Below, in pieces: positions 14,362 through 23,677 of a DNA stretch of 64,000 bases; position 1 is the stretch's first letter, and each line of letters begins with the position of its first letter. The translations under genes and the position numbers were made by a program. Source of the stretch: Labrys wisconsinensis (GTDB lineage Bacteria; Pseudomonadota; Alphaproteobacteria; Rhizobiales; Labraceae); the NCBI RefSeq assembly GCF_030814995.1, contig NZ_JAUSVX010000006.1, forward strand, positions 310,001-374,000. Reading direction: 5' to 3'. The notes beneath the pieces were generated by a model. That model was given only the letters and a program-made list of their open reading frames with translations. It made no database searches and was not told the DNA's origin.

Positions 14362-15108
14362 TTATCGCGCCTCGGTGAGATAGTCGTAGACCACTTCGCC
14401 GAGGCCAAGCGTCAGGTCGGCCTTGAAGTGCAGGGCCGAAACCACCTCGACGACCGGCAGGCGGGCGACGTCGGCCATGACGTGCGGGCGCAGGTCGAGC
14501 GCCGCCGGCGCGGTCCAGGCCTCTTTCAGCGTCACGTCGGTGAGGTGATAGCGCACCAGCTCGCAGATGCGCATGCTGCCGTCGACATGCGGGATGATCT
14601 TGATCAGGAAGTTCGGCGCCCCCAGCGCCGCCAGCACCTGGTCCCGGTCGGCCGGCCGATGCTTGTAGCCCATGGTGCCGATGGCGCACAGGACGCTGCC
14701 GTAGTGCAGCGTGCCCACCACCACCTCGCCCTCGTGCACGATCTTCGGGCTGGCGAGCTTCTTGGGGAAGCCCCAGAGCTCGCGGCCGCCGGCGATCGGC
14801 GCGTCGTCGTCGAGATACATGGAGTGGACATAGACGCCATGCTCGCCGCGAAAGCGCACCGGGATCACCTGGCCGCTCTCGGTATAGTCGCCGAAGCCGG
14901 TGGAGTCCGGCATGCGGATGAACTCGTACTTGACCACCGGCTCGTCGATCTCGAGCGGCGCCGGCACCACCGCTTCCAGCGCCTCGCGCGTGGTGCGGTA
15001 GGTGATGATCACATATTCCCGGTCGAAGAAGCGGTAGGGACCGGGCGGGAAGGATGGGTTGGTCAGCGGCATGGCGCTGGCGCGCTTCAGGACGTCGGCG
15101 ATTTCCAA
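14362..15108 (-). CDS. adc: Acetoacetate decarboxylase (TTG start)
   Basis: Decarboxylates acetoacetate to acetone and CO2 through a Schiff base on lysine. The catalytic pair is visible as Lys116-Lys117 in [10 protein letters not shown], aligning with the Lys115-Lys116 pair of the clostridial enzyme. The TTG at 15108 is chosen: AGGGGAAG lies just upstream, the resulting N-terminus ([20 protein letters not shown]) matches family starts, and 248 residues is the normal length (clostridial Adc about 244); the upstream ATG at 15246 would add a Pro/Arg-rich tail. It lies upstream of the patatin-like gene on the same strand, separated by repeats and a terminator. Confidence 0.88.
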
Positions 15109-15439
15109 GCGGCTTCCCCTCTGGCAAACCAGTCGTGGTGACCTCGGCGTGATGTCGCATGGCGTCATGACAACGTCGTGTCGGCCGTCTCCTGGGGAAG
15201 CGGGGCGAGCGACGGGGCGCGGGACGAAACATGCATGTATTGGCATGATCTCCTGCTGCCAGGCTCCACGGCCTGCCGTGGGCGTCAGAGGCCCGCAGCC
15301 AAGTCAAATCGTCAAATGCCGGGACTTGCTCGGACAGAGCGAGTTAACCTGTTTTAAGCGAAACCCTTCCTAGATTGTCGCTCGACCAACAGCACGGGTT
15401 GCGAAGACGCCAGTGATCGCCGGCGAGGCCCTGAACGAC
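15109..15439. other. Intergenic region between adc and the GNAT-like gene
   Basis: Divergent upstream region of about 330 bases serving adc (minus) and the GNAT-like gene (plus). It holds ATGCATGTATTGGCAT, an imperfect dyad near 15231-15246, and GTTAACCTGTTTTAAG near 15344, where two TTAA boxes are six rather than seven bases apart. No convincing sigma-70 or sigma-54 promoter or further gene was found. Confidence 0.4.
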
Positions 15440-17933: not shown

Positions 17934-18593
17934 TCAGGCGCCACGCCGGTCGAGCTGGGGGCCGGGCGTCAGCTCGTGCAGCCGGTGGATGCCGGGCATT
18001 TCGATGAAGCCTTCGAGGCCGCGGACCGCACGGGACCAGAGCCGGATCGTCGGGTAGGGATCGAGCGGGATGCCGCCGTCCGGCGCGAGCGCCACATAGG
18101 GGAAGCAGGCGATGTCGGCGACGGTCGGCCGGTCCGAGGCGAGGAACCGCATGCCGCGCAGGCGCTGCTCGACCAGGCCGGCCTCCAGCTCGCGAAGGGC
18201 GGCGATGCCCTGGCCCTGAAGGGCGCCGATATCGCCGGGGCGCAGCAGCATTTCGTGCAGGCGGGCGCCGCCGAGGCCGGCCGTCAGCCGGTGGGAGAAG
18301 CAGAGCCATTGCTGGATGCGCGCGGTCTCCGCCGGCGCGCCGCTGCCGAGCCATTCCGGCGCGCTGCGCGCCGCGAGATAAGCGAGCATGGCCGCGGATT
18401 CGGTCAGGACCAGGTCTCCGTCCTCGAGGATCGGGATCGAGCCCGCCGGGTTGAGCGCCGTCAGCTCGGGACCGCGATGCTCGGCGCCGGGATGGAAATC
18501 CACCGGCCGGAGCTCCAGCCGCACCCCGGCCAACGCCGCCATCAGGCGCACCTTGTAGCAGCTGGGCGAGAGCACGTAGTCGTAGAGCTTCAT
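17934..18593 (-). CDS. GST-like partner of a split Rieske oxygenase
   Basis: Glutathione S-transferase fold, 219 residues: thioredoxin-like N-terminal domain (KLYDYVLSPSCYKVRLMAALAGV, NPAGSIPILEDGDLVLTESAAMLAYLA) and a helical C-terminal domain (about 85-205). The start codon overlaps the stop of the preceding oxygenase subunit (ATGA), so it is translated with it. In the Pseudomonas putida N7-demethylase, the GST homologue NdmE is a structural partner of the Rieske-less oxygenase NdmC (known from the literature). By analogy this protein may hold the complex together rather than conjugate glutathione. An ordinary detoxifying GST is the alternative. Confidence 0.82.
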   Translation of the reverse strand: MKLYDYVLSPSCYKVRLMAALAGVRLELRPVDFHPGAEHRGPELTALNPAGSIPILEDGDLVLTESAAMLAYLAARSAPEWLGSGAPAETARIQQWLCFSHRLTAGLGGARLHEMLLRPGDIGALQGQGIAALRELEAGLVEQRLRGMRFLASDRPTVADIACFPYVALAPDGGIPLDPYPTIRLWSRAVRGLEGFIEMPGIHRLHELTPGPQLDRRGA

Positions 18594-19420
18594 TGCGCCA
18601 CCAGCTCGGCGCCGTAGGTGTAGCCGTGCCGCTTCAGCCAGCGCCGGTAGGCCACCGAGGTCAGGTCGGCGCGCGTCGGGATCTCCATGCCGGGATCGAG
18701 CGGGAGCAGGCGCGGGATCTGGTTTTCGAGGATCGAGCGGTCCTGCAGGAAGATCATCTGCTGGAAGTGGATGAGGTCGGTCATCGCCGTGGTGTCGTCG
18801 AACAGCGCCATCCACGGCCAGACGTCGCAGAGATCCTCGGCGAGGGGCTGGACGAACAGCGTGATGACGTCCCATTCGCCGGGCCGGGGCGGGCAGGTCT
18901 TGTAGAGGACCGAGCAGGTCGGCGCCGGCACGCGGTACATGTATTGCGTGGTGATGCCGCCGCTGGCGGACTTCGCCGCCTGCGGCTGGTAGAATTGCAC
19001 CTGGGTCGCCCAGACCTCATCCTCCGCCTCCCGGATCTCGACCTTGTAGTCCTGCACCTCCGTATGCGGTTCCGCGCCGAGGATATCGGTGTGCACGAAG
19101 GGGAAATGGGCGATGTCGAGGAAATTCTCCACCGCGCGCAGCGGCGAGCAGCGCACGCGGACCACGCCGACATCGACGAAGCGGCGGCCGGGCTGGTCGG
19201 CCTCGGGAATGGCGAAGAGAGCCTTGCGGGGCGCGCCGAGCGAGGACCAGACATGGCTGTAGCGCACGCAGACGGGCAGGGCGCGGCCGCTCGCATCGGT
19301 CACCTCGGCATTCCCCGCCGCATCGAGTCCGACCTCGATCGGCACGCCCATCAGGGCCGTCCGGCGTCCGGCCCGGCCGAGCTGACTGAAGAGGCCGACC
19401 GGATACCATTGGTCGGTCAT
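18590..19420 (-). CDS. Rieske-oxygenase catalytic subunit lacking the Rieske cluster segment
   Basis: Catalytic domain of a Rieske non-haem iron oxygenase, 276 residues. The iron triad is visible: Asn99/Asp102, His105 and His110 in ENFLDIAHFPFVH, with the third ligand Asp227 in QDRSILENQ. The protein begins WYPVGLFSQL and then LMGVPIEV, like the start of a full-length alpha subunit, but the CxH...CxxH cluster-binding segment is absent and the chain resumes at RYSHVWSSLG. Electrons must therefore come from another protein; the gene 12 bases upstream encodes a lone Rieske domain. This recalls NdmC. It is coupled to the GST-like gene downstream. The substrate is unknown: an N- or O-methyl aromatic or purine is a guess. 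Confidence 0.85.
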   Translation of the reverse strand: MTDQWYPVGLFSQLGRAGRRTALMGVPIEVGLDAAGNAEVTDASGRALPVCVRYSHVWSSLGAPRKALFAIPEADQPGRRFVDVGVVRVRCSPLRAVENFLDIAHFPFVHTDILGAEPHTEVQDYKVEIREAEDEVWATQVQFYQPQAAKSASGGITTQYMYRVPAPTCSVLYKTCPPRPGEWDVITLFVQPLAEDLCDVWPWMALFDDTTAMTDLIHFQQMIFLQDRSILENQIPRLLPLDPGMEIPTRADLTSVAYRRWLKRHGYTYGAELVAQ

Positions 19421-19431
19421 CGCGTTTCCCG

Positions 19432-20082
19432 TCACGACGCGATCTCCCCGCGCTGCAGCGCCTCGGCGCTGCGCCGCAGGCTCTCGACGGCCCGCGACGC
19501 GGCGATGCGCTCGGACCGGCTGCTGTCGCCAGCCACCAGCACGTGGATCAGCGTCCGCTCCTCCTCCTGCGCGACCAGCAGCAGGCGAAGAGGGTGCGAT
19601 GCCGGCGCCCGCCACATCAGGCCGTCCGGCCCCGCGGTGGAACCGGCGGCGGCCTCCAATGCGGCGATGCCGGCATGCGCCGTCAGCGAGCGCAGCGGCA
19701 GCCGGTCGAGGTGCGGAGGCCGCGCCGCGGCTTGCCCGGCCGCGACCCAGAGGATCCCGTCGCAGTCCTCGACGGCGTGCGTGTCGACGCGTATCGCAGC
19801 CGGTGGCGTGAGGTCCGGGTGTGCGGGAATGCGCAGGCAAGCCCCGGTCCGGTCATAGCTCCAGCCGTGATAGATGCAGGAGAGGGTCTCCCCGCGCACG
19901 AAGCCGTGGGAGAGGCGCATGCCGCGATGCGGACAACGGTCCGCGGCGGCCGCCGCCTGCCCCGACCGGCTCCGCCACAGGGCGATCGGCCCGGCGGGCG
20001 TGCGTGCCGGCATCACGGTCCCTGCCGGCAGGTCCGCGGAAAGGGCGACCGGTGTCCAGGAGCCCGTCGTGTCTGGCAGCAT
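19432..20082 (-). CDS. Stand-alone Rieske [2Fe-2S] protein
   Basis: Protein of 216 residues. Residues about 8-115 form a Rieske domain with ligands Cys50 and His52 (CPHRGM) and Cys69 and His72 (CIYHGW), spaced as in oxygenase-type Rieske domains. The remaining 100 residues show no flavin, NADH or plant-type ferredoxin motif, so it is not a reductase; they may be a docking module. It precedes the Rieske-less catalytic subunit by 11 bases and is probably its electron donor in trans. The reductase feeding it must be encoded elsewhere. Upstream of its start lies a 19-base motif shared with 30093-30111. Confidence 0.85.
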   Translation of the reverse strand: MLPDTTGSWTPVALSADLPAGTVMPARTPAGPIALWRSRSGQAAAAADRCPHRGMRLSHGFVRGETLSCIYHGWSYDRTGACLRIPAHPDLTPPAAIRVDTHAVEDCDGILWVAAGQAAARPPHLDRLPLRSLTAHAGIAALEAAAGSTAGPDGLMWRAPASHPLRLLLVAQEEERTLIHVLVAGDSSRSERIAASRAVESLRRSAEALQRGEIAS

Positions 20083-20237: not shown

Positions 20238-20507
20238 TCAGCCGGTCTCGCCATCGATCGGTGAACGATGGATGGTCTCGACCCAGACGTCGATGGGCCC
20301 GAGCGAGCAGCCCATCTCCATCATGTCGATCAGCGCCGTCGGACCGGCGAGCTCGAGCTCGATCCGGCCGGTGCTGGTGTGGCTCACCGCCTGCGAGAGC
20401 CCGAGCCTGGCGGCATGGCGCCGGATCCAGGGGAGGAACGAGGCGGCGTCGACGTCGCCGAGGATCGTCATCCGTTCCCGCGAGGCGCTGTGATGGGGCT
20501 CGGTCAT
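20238..20507 (-). CDS. Degenerate acylphosphatase-like protein
   Basis: Protein of 89 residues (77 if it starts at the second ATG, 20471). It follows the acylphosphatase layout: a first strand (TILGDVDAASFLPWIRRHAARLGL), then the GRIELELAGP strand, a helix and a final VWVETIH strand. Both catalytic positions look lost: the active-site Arg of the FxR motif is replaced (SFLPW) and the Asn of the WVxN motif is not present (AVSH). It is therefore probably not an acylphosphatase enzyme but a small binding or structural protein. It lies 50 bases downstream of a P-loop ATPase gene on the same strand. Confidence 0.6.
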   Translation of the reverse strand: MTEPHHSASRERMTILGDVDAASFLPWIRRHAARLGLSQAVSHTSTGRIELELAGPTALIDMMEMGCSLGPIDVWVETIHRSPIDGETG

Positions 20508-22301: not shown

Positions 22302-22880
22302 TCAGGCGATGGCGGTGACCAGCCGTCCGGCGCTGCCGTCGGCAAGCAGGATGCGCTCCCACAGGACGCGGCCCGGCGGGATCGGCAGCAGCGCATCGCC
22401 ATTGGCGCCGGTATCGAGGGCGAGGCAGGCGAGCCGGTCCTCGTGCCAGCCGCGCTCTGCCAGCGTCGCCTCCGCGGCCAGGATCTCGGGCGAGGCATAG
22501 GCGATGAGGGGGCGGCCCAGCAGCTCGGCGATGTCGAGGCGCCACTCGGCCCGGCGTGCCGGCGAGGCGGCGAGCAGCCGGTGCGTCCGGTCGCAGATCA
22601 GGTGCACCTTGGCGGCGGAGGATTCCACCAACCGCCGCAGCGCGGCGTCCCCGGCCGGGCCGGCGGCGAGCCTGCGCTCGACAGCCGCTTCCTGGGCGGC
22701 CGAGAGCGGCAGGAGGCCGCGCTCCCAGCGCGACACCGTGCCCTGGCTGACGCCGACGAGCTCGGCGAGATGGCTCTGCTTCATGCCGCGCAGGCGCCGC
22801 AGCCGCCGCAACGCCGGGCCGGGATGGGGCGTTGCGGCGCCATCCCGCCGGATCGGCAGCGACGGCGCCGGTCCGCTCAT
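22302..22880 (-). CDS. XRE-family regulator with C-terminal sensor-like domain
   Basis: Transcription factor of 192 residues. The helix-turn-helix is at about residues 23-60 (LRRLRGMKQSHLAELVGVSQGTVSRWERG). The C-terminal 110 residues (KVHLICDRTHRLLAASPARRAEWR..., ending ERILLADGSAGRL) form a compact alpha/beta domain that resembles a PAS-like ligand domain. Its ATG overlaps the stop of the upstream GST gene (ATGA), so regulator and GST are translated together. It may control this GST or the downstream epimerase. Confidence 0.75.
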   Translation of the reverse strand: MSGPAPSLPIRRDGAATPHPGPALRRLRRLRGMKQSHLAELVGVSQGTVSRWERGLLPLSAAQEAAVERRLAAGPAGDAALRRLVESSAAKVHLICDRTHRLLAASPARRAEWRLDIAELLGRPLIAYASPEILAAEATLAERGWHEDRLACLALDTGANGDALLPIPPGRVLWERILLADGSAGRLVTAIA

Positions 22881-23581
22881 GGCCGCGCGGGGATCGCCAG
22901 GCCGCGCTGCACCGCAGGCCGCGCCAGGCAGCGCTCGAGCCAGGCCGGCACGCGCTTCAGCGTGTCGAACTCGACGAGGTTGCCGGCGCCATAGAAGCCG
23001 ATCAGGTTGCGCACCCAGCCGAGGAGCGAGATGTCGGCGATGGTGTAGTCTTCGCCCATGATCCAGTCGCGGCCCTCCAGCCGCGTCTCCAGCACGCCGA
23101 GCAGGCGCTTGGATTCGGCCTGGTAGCGCTGCAGCGGCCGCTTGTCCTCGATCTCCCGGCCGGCGAACTTGTAGAAGAAGCCGACCTGGCCGAACATCGG
23201 TCCCACCGCCGCCATCTGGAAGAACACCCACTGGATGGTCTCGTAGCGCCGTGCCGGGTCGGCCGACATGAGCTGGCCGGTCTTCTCGGCGAGATAGACC
23301 AGGATCGCGCCGGATTCGAACAGCCCGAGCGGCTTGCCGCCGGGGCCGTCGGGATCGATGATGGCCGGGATCTTGCCGTTCGGGTTGAGGGAGAGGAACT
23401 CGGGGGTCCAGCTCTCGTTCTTGCCGATGTCGATGGTGTGCGGCTCGTAGGGCAGCCTGATCTCCTCCAGCGCGATCGAGACCTTGACGCCGTTGGGCGT
23501 CGGCAGGGAATAGAGCTGCAGCCGGTCGGGGTGCTGGGCCGGCCAGCGCCGGGTGATCGGGAAAGCGGACAGGTCTGACAT
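22877..23581 (-). CDS. Glutathione S-transferase (YfcG/nu-class-like)
   Basis: Cytoplasmic GST of 234 residues. The thioredoxin domain contains the TPNG-K signature (LYSLPTPNGVKVSIAL) typical of YfcG/Ure2-like enzymes, which act as disulfide-bond reductases with bound glutathione, and NPNGKIPAI plus ESGAILVYLAEKTG. The helical domain ends with DYTIADISLLGWV. The start at 23581 is preceded by CGAAGGAGCC reading on the minus strand. It is coupled to the XRE regulator by an ATGA overlap. Confidence 0.9.
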   Translation of the reverse strand: MSDLSAFPITRRWPAQHPDRLQLYSLPTPNGVKVSIALEEIRLPYEPHTIDIGKNESWTPEFLSLNPNGKIPAIIDPDGPGGKPLGLFESGAILVYLAEKTGQLMSADPARRYETIQWVFFQMAAVGPMFGQVGFFYKFAGREIEDKRPLQRYQAESKRLLGVLETRLEGRDWIMGEDYTIADISLLGWVRNLIGFYGAGNLVEFDTLKRVPAWLERCLARPAVQRGLAIPARP

Positions 23582-23677
23582 CGAAGGCTCCTCGGCGCGA
23601 TCGCCTGCTCCGGCTTGGCTCAATCGCCGCCGCGGCGCAAGCATCGCCGTCGTCACAGGGCGGTGAGCGGCGCCGGC

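Follow-up and report, generated by a model that had tools for sequence, protein, structure and literature searches.

Introduction

The closest described system to the genes treated here is NdmCDE of Pseudomonas putida CBB5, the 7-methylxanthine N7-demethylase with which bacterial breakdown of caffeine ends its series of demethylations. According to the passages of a review that deal with it, NdmC is without a Rieske cluster and NdmE is a glutathione transferase (GST)-like subunit that is thought to be structural (PMC4408171). The enzyme is described as a 3:3:3 complex specific for 7-methylxanthine, with an NdmC that is insoluble without its partners (PMC10380055), and its structure is termed unsolved in a 2026 source (PMC13237722). 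In ordinary Rieske oxygenases (ROs) the distance from cluster to iron is about 12 Å between subunits, bridged by a conserved Asp, and about 45 Å within a subunit, according to PMC12445004. Here we describe a divided Rieske oxygenase encoded in a stretch of 64,000 nucleotides from Labrys wisconsinensis (contig NZ_JAUSVX010000006.1, positions 310,001 to 374,000), hereafter called the window. Three adjoining genes on its minus strand encode a stand-alone Rieske protein (Rsk), an oxygenase alpha subunit without a Rieske cluster (Cat) and a GST-like protein (GST), and this set is a widespread unfused variant of an NdmCDE-like oxygenase. It probably serves as a split N-demethylase for an N-methylated purine, as far as its sequence tells, and would be fed by an unlinked reductase. 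A preliminary description made from the letters of this DNA had presented it as a candidate new system, which was too strong, as ndmCDE homologues of unknown function, mostly in Sinorhizobium and Mesorhizobium, are already noted in the review (PMC4408171). What is new is the unfused form, together with the conserved operon and a reading of how the two halves arose (see below); the primary NdmCDE paper (Summers et al. 2013) may describe unfused Rieske genes.

Gene layout and domain content

The genes lie in the following order on the minus strand of the window:

20238..20507, minus strand: acylphosphatase-like small open reading frame (ORF), about 89 aa from the chosen start, leading gene of the block that rhizobia also have
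19432..20082, minus strand: Rsk, stand-alone Rieske [2Fe-2S] protein, 216 aa; residues 1-118 RO alpha-type Rieske domain, residues 119-216 tail
18590..19435, minus strand: Cat, Rieske-less oxygenase alpha subunit, GTG start with an alternative ATG at 19420
17934..18593, minus strand: GST, NdmE-like glutathione-transferase-fold protein, 219 aa
17807..17932, minus strand: remnant of the start of an amidohydrolase (AmiH), an ORF of 41 codons recognised by translation and DNA homology

The three coupled minus-strand genes of the preliminary description are confirmed as ORFs, and they overlap by 4 bp at both junctions (GTGA at the Rsk stop and Cat start, ATGA at the Cat stop and GST start). Pfam and motif checks agree with its lone Rieske protein, its Rieske-less subunit with an iron triad and its GST-like protein, and all the residues it named in Rsk and Cat are right. 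Its extent of the locus holds for the three genes and misses both the acylphosphatase-like gene upstream (20507-20238) and the truncated amidohydrolase start downstream; it likewise overlooked the operon of AmiH and a BMP-type importer, the vestiges and the truncation that are treated below.

Rsk matches the Rieske family PF00355 (E 4e-21) and aligns with residues 10-124 of SxtT (E 2.2e-24). The cluster ligands are Cys50, His52, Cys69 and His72 in the window sequence, and they are conserved in 105 of 105 Rsks with the exception of Cys69, which is kept in 104. The top matches of Rsk are the Rieske domains of RO alpha subunits, as seen from the SxtT match compared with that to the ferredoxin CarAc (E 1.4e-7), and the ferredoxin-type Rieske models match weakly (HcaC 22.9 bits, PRK09965 35.9 bits). 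Judged from these comparisons Rsk is of the RO alpha type and not of the ferredoxin type.

Cat matches VanA_C (PF19112, E 3.2e-20, 73.5 bits with a cut-off of 23.5) and aligns with residues 109-333 of SxtDIOX (E 6.8e-22). It covers this span in SxtT as well, so that the first part of SxtT is matched by Rsk and the second by Cat. As Cat aligns with Rieske-bearing oxygenases (SxtT, NdmA), it does not fall in a family that never had a Rieske domain, a doubt raised in the preliminary description. Its iron-site residues are Asp102, His105, His110 and Asp227, numbered from the ATG at 19420, and the CxH..CxxH Rieske motif was not found in the window Cat. All four residues are retained in 110 of 110 Cats, counted from 114 rows that were pre-filtered for absence of CxH...CxxH; two fragments were dropped from these, along with two rows that are pieces of full-length oxygenases. 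About 75 N-terminal residues of Cat form a Rieske-fold shell without the cluster finger, and the remainder is a VanA_C-type catalytic domain. The shell is recognisable by profile comparison of Cat residues 1-80 (from the GTG) with full oxygenases (E 1.2e-14, score 88; 20 shuffles gave 15.5 at most), and a gap of about 48 columns relative to full ROs falls at the CPHR...YHGW finger.

The third protein matches GST_N (PF02798, E 2e-15) and, likewise above the cut-off, the C domain PF13410. Identity to the proteins of R. johnstonii is 88% for Cat and 82% for GST.

Relation to NdmCDE and occurrence of the three genes

NdmCDE resembles the window set in having an iron-triad subunit without a Rieske cluster, a Rieske domain on a separate chain and a GST-like third subunit, and relatives of the window set share with it a neighbourhood of genes for purine transport and formaldehyde removal. 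The set differs from NdmCDE in that its Rieske protein is unfused, with no reductase found nearby, and in that AmiH and a BMP importer accompany its intact relatives. The GST differs too: the window type keeps the E-S motif of the glutathione site, and D-A is found in 13 of 22 GST rows from other loci. In SxtT/SxtDIOX and NdmA/NdmB the catalytic domain is of the same type as Cat, but both centres are located on a single chain. Three-component oxygenases with a Rieske ferredoxin, such as carbazole dioxygenase with CarAc, also use a small Rieske protein to supply electrons; their alpha subunit bears its own Rieske cluster, unlike Cat, and Rsk is of the RO alpha type.

The parallel to NdmC, NdmE and NdmD drawn in the preliminary description holds in outline. 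At L110 and ten other loci the Rsk equivalent forms the N terminus of a larger protein that also has reductase and plant-type ferredoxin parts; L110 itself (G193) combines a Cat and a Rieske-reductase fusion of 574 aa with a GST that is truncated where the contig ends. The fusion on P. putida pPPUT-Tik1-1 matches the ferredoxin chain of NdmD (6icm_D, E 8.5e-35), and its neighbours are a Cat, a GST, the urate hydroxylase HpxO and an NCS2 symporter that scores above the xanthine-permease cut-off. The Rieske-less Cats form one clade against 22 sampled full ROs (support 100/100; 33 Cat rows after removal of L156_3377, L110_1979 and surplus rhizobial rows). The window Cat shares a 100/100 clade with the loci of NdmD-type fusions, where the likeness to NdmD is taken from one fusion and CBB5 NdmC is not in the tree. 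Rsk is a stand-alone protein of 216 aa without fusion to a reductase, and no NdmD-type reductase match was found in the window or in the fetched stretches of 80 rhizobial loci. By the fusion criterion the window set is thus not a strict NdmCDE member, and it appears to work like one.

The gene-context survey called for in the preliminary description shows that the three genes occur together in 80/80 rhizobial and 25/25 other loci. The rhizobial set stems from a scan of named genomes that gave 198 stretches with Cat relatives, of which the best 80 were kept (85-89% identical; rhizobia and their kin, or records labelled Rhizobiales or bacterium). The other 25 loci were scored for neighbours in stretches of 5-25 kb, and L155, which belongs to the rhizobial type, and L159, which duplicates L158, were excluded. 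An eight-Cat profile matched 24 of 398 genomes of the phylum, in our own reading 15 with Rieske-less Cats and nine with full-length oxygenases, and a search of the class matched 12 of 289, six with Rieske-less Cats. Among plasmids 306 records matched Cat; six of the 60 matches listed were examined, together with two records chosen by accession. Besides Rsk and GST, the 25 loci hold BMP (16), NCS2 (3), FrmA (8) and AmiH (4), so that a BMP or NCS2 transporter is present in 19; NdmD-type fusions are found in 11, and VanB-type reductases in 15 when fusions are counted in. As controls, 20 regions of 20 kb were taken from six genomes, and a Cat locus is present in five of these genomes; one GST was the sole hit for any of the gene types scored, with Cat, Rsk, FrmA and BMP or NCS2 transporters in none. 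Chance neighbourhood of the three genes was rejected on these counts. BMP (Fisher p 4e-6) and FrmA (p 0.006) differ from the controls, with the loci not all independent, and AmiH (p 0.12) and NCS2 (p 0.24) do not.

Gene order varies among these loci. S. meliloti 1021 pSymA (L150:9965-20840) has three Cat genes, one NdmD-type fusion and one GST, adjoined by a BMP ABC importer and FrmA. At L185, L186, L187, L161, L162 and L157 two Cats stand in tandem beside one Rieske-reductase fusion and a GST; perhaps the two Cats provide two substrate specificities that share one relay. In Cupriavidus sp. EM10 the Rieske-reductase fusion of G521 is represented by two ORFs that overlap (L154:9681-12992 compared with L163:5892-9206), and the Cat and GST of this strain are likewise fragmented, through decay or sequencing error. 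Full-length Rieske oxygenases of a related type stand in tandem or in clusters at L113:7768-9779 and L112:5765-14648, and those of L112 surround a BMP ABC importer. On pKNA08 of Komagataeibacter nataicola, from kombucha, homologues of NdmA (E 4.4e-167) and NdmB (E 3.1e-129) have two unfused Rsk-Cat-GST sets in their vicinity. One of these sets comes with a VanB-type reductase as a separate protein and has a divergent Cat; the other keeps all ligands. This region (L151:4905-16970) also includes a FrmA fragment and is possibly a caffeine-degradation region.

The rhizobial operon

Rsk, Cat, GST and AmiH are present in each of the 80 rhizobial loci, and the acylphosphatase-like gene and the BMP binding protein in 79. 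L054 is the sole locus without BMP; its contig stops inside AmiH, and the ABC matches found there belong to a weaker paralogue. Cat and GST overlap by 4 bp in 80/80 loci; for Rsk and Cat the overlap, with the chosen starts, has this length in 64/80. The annotation of pRL10 of R. johnstonii 3841 lists, in this order, acylphosphatase, Rieske, oxygenase, GST, amidohydrolase, BMP binding protein, ATPase and two permeases, and the block from acylphosphatase to AmiH is also found in four genomes of the same order (G540, G380, G440, G519). Rhizobial AmiH resembles 8-oxoguanine deaminase at 371.6 bits, below the cut-off of 532, as does that of L152, and the AmiH of L153 and L158 exceed it (582.5 and 573.1). 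The nearest solved chain is labelled 8-oxoguanine deaminase and hydroxydechloroatrazine ethylaminohydrolase. No report on the function of this operon was found in the one open-licence library searched, and the rhizobial papers on a 'Rieske' protein found there concern, in the passages at hand, a different protein.

The acylphosphatase-like ORF of the window matches the first gene of the R. johnstonii operon at 74% identity over 77 aa and has a weak PF00708 match over 20247-20495 (26.8 bits, cut-off 22.5). The Arg and Asn that form the catalytic motif of acylphosphatases appear to be missing in the alignment, and the protein may be non-catalytic. The gene accompanies the split oxygenase at L104:14225-14491 also. 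In Qingshengfaniella (L152:17649-20813) a YcaQ-type DNA glycosylase, a flavin reductase and an allantoinase directly follow the rhizobial-type operon, which fits a purine theme.

Proposed function

The model of complex, electron path, demethylation and substrate that follows builds on the observed gene set, motifs, conservation, clade and context. The three genes would specify one terminal oxygenase distributed over three chains, with Rsk carrying the Rieske cluster, Cat the 2-His-1-Asp iron site, and GST acting as a scaffold subunit, as proposed for NdmE. Electrons would pass from NAD(P)H over a reductase to the Rsk cluster, and from there would cross between the two proteins by way of Asp102 to reach the iron of Cat. 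Such a split is workable because ordinary ROs already pass the electron between neighbouring subunits. The reductase must be encoded elsewhere, since neither the window nor the fetched stretches of the 80 rhizobial loci yielded one; a VanB-type candidate exists in the organism's own genome (G000 C12, 38% identity). The Cat iron would activate O2 and hydroxylate the N-methyl group of a purine-like substrate, with release of formaldehyde. N-demethylation is suggested by kinship together with the FrmA and purine-transporter neighbours in relatives. FrmA is part of the route that handles formaldehyde with glutathione. Where the rhizobial operon is intact, the BMP-type importer would bring in the substrate and AmiH would deaminate it, and the 8-oxoguanine-deaminase-like AmiH and the BMP importer together suggest that the rhizobial-type substrate is N-methylated guanine or 8-oxoguanine.

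Several observations weigh against this model. No match of at least 80 bits to a VanB- or NdmD-type reductase, FrmA, NCS2, HpxO or a partial AllB was found in the 80 rhizobial loci (fetched stretches of 12.7-20.8 kb), and the 64-kb window gave only a FrmA match of 30% identity and 57 bits. The window copy is without a full AmiH and without an importer beside the three genes. In the first kombucha set, the one bearing a reductase, Gly replaces Cys69 of Rsk. G079, from the search of the class, holds a short Cat-like match of 88 residues that fits a full RO equally well and has no Rsk or GST match nearby; being weak and partial, it was excluded from the counts. The 25 loci are not independent, as they comprise three congeners and further near relatives. 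Finally, the kinship with NdmC appears through proxy loci, the collections searched being without the CBB5 NdmC and NdmE sequences.

Alternative explanations

It is conceivable, if doubtful, that a rhizobial-type operon was transferred and that the window copy is what is left of it, in decay and without a useful role. AmiH is broken, being readable for about 17 codons after GST, and DNA homology to the 80 rhizobial loci stops by 17883 at the furthest, a point reached in 27 of them; the importer does not adjoin. The window Cat is nested within the rhizobial Cats (98/97) and joins Qingshengfaniella in a 100/100 group. The adjoining epimerase is conserved in all four congeners, and the split-oxygenase block is not beside it there; three of them have another version of the locus, made up of two tandem Cats with an NdmD-type fusion, a GST and a BMP importer, and one has none. 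Together these observations suggest that a rhizobial-type block was gained that lost, or never had, AmiH and the importer. Against decay, the three ORFs are open and all ligands are present, the G+C content of the three-gene block is in line with that of the window (70.3% and 70.1%), and AmiH-like (41%) and BMP-like (40%) genes exist elsewhere in the genome. In comparisons with six rhizobia the pN/pS of Cat is 0.13-0.19 (one rhizobial pair gave 0.16), that of Rsk 0.30-0.42 (pair 0.31) and that of GST 0.15-0.29 (pair 0.12). All values are well under 1, and the three window genes look constrained. Rsk and GST are mostly somewhat looser than in the rhizobial pair, which speaks for decay.

A somewhat less probable alternative is a split oxygenase that hydroxylates the ring or side chain of a purine or related heterocycle, like HpxD, and does not N-demethylate. 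The 8-oxoguanine-deaminase-like AmiH and its relatives would suit such chemistry, as would the lack of FrmA matches in the 80 rhizobial loci, and HpxD-annotated proteins are distant homologues of Cat (26.7-31.3%). N-demethylation is preferred in view of the FrmA neighbours in 8 of the 25 relatives, the NdmA and NdmB homologues close to unfused sets, and the clustering of Cat with loci of NdmD-type fusions apart from the 22 full ROs.

That Rsk is an ordinary Rieske ferredoxin for another oxygenase and Cat an unrelated inactive relic is very improbable. Small Rieske proteins are frequently ferredoxins, and the weak HcaC and PRK09965 matches would agree with this, but the best matches of Rsk are RO alpha subunits, the Cat triad is kept throughout and the Cat-GST overlap is invariant in rhizobia, and the explanation was rejected. 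An ordinary oxygenase gene split by a frameshift, as pseudogene or assembly error, was likewise rejected as next to impossible: two adjoining ORFs do jointly cover one RO, but they overlap in homology, both matching the SxtT 109-124 junction, Cat owns an N-terminal shell, gene order differs among loci, and the split is conserved in all 80 rhizobial and most of the 25 other loci, the remainder being reductase fusions.

Origin of the two halves

The Cat shell and the Rsk tail diverge faster than the functional parts of the two proteins. Median identity to the 80 rhizobia is 67% for Cat residues 1-75 and 94% for the remainder of Cat, and 53% for the Rsk tail and 75% for the Rsk Rieske domain. A first profile comparison of the Rsk tail was non-significant, both with Cats (E 0.029, probability 0.9%) and with full ROs (E 0.054). 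In a second attempt, after removal of rows (L149_RO12849 from the full ROs; L156_3377, L110_1979 and L154_9710 from the Cats; L151_6784 and L164_8106 from the Rsks) and a shift of the cut by two residues, the tail matched the catalytic part of Cat over 21 columns (E 1.4e-4, probability 52%, score 32.1; 20 column shuffles 11.7 at most, reversed 13.1). The cleaned tail compared with full ROs was still non-significant (score 13.7, reversed 14.1). This single short match from the second attempt is hinting at a catalytic vestige in the Rsk tail.

We read the Cat shell, the Rsk tail match and the faster evolution of shell and tail as hints that Rsk and Cat are paralogues of full alpha subunits that decayed reciprocally, Rsk by loss of the iron site and Cat by loss of the cluster finger; a gene fission with later extension is the alternative. 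It is tempting to speculate further that the two became an obligate pair held by GST. In this scenario the rhizobial version would be a catabolic N7-demethylase for methylated guanines, with a GST that could bind glutathione and take up the formaldehyde, and its substrates would be 7-methylguanine or 7-methyl-8-oxoguanine from RNA and DNA turnover. This extended scenario, substrates included, is a tentative one. The Rsk tree is weakly resolved (12 of 45 inner branches starred), and either fusion or splitting of Rsk may have come first. No paper on a methylguanine N7-demethylation route was found in the one open-licence library searched, for 7-methylguanine with Rieske or with bacterial deaminase catabolism.

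Other genes near the locus

A second GST is encoded at 22877-23656 of the window and is closest to disulfide-bond oxidoreductase models, and a protein of the acetoacetate-decarboxylase family is encoded near the split-oxygenase region at 14362-15246.

Implications

A split Rieske oxygenase of this kind offers a natural test of the rule of inter-subunit electron transfer, as the two centres are located on different chains and each is open to mutation, titration or exchange by itself. The small unfused Rsk-Cat-GST sets are possibly easier to study than NdmCDE. For the organisms concerned, the finding draws attention to an operon that is widespread among rhizobia and linked to purines, and to a kombucha bacterium with a plasmid that may serve caffeine degradation.

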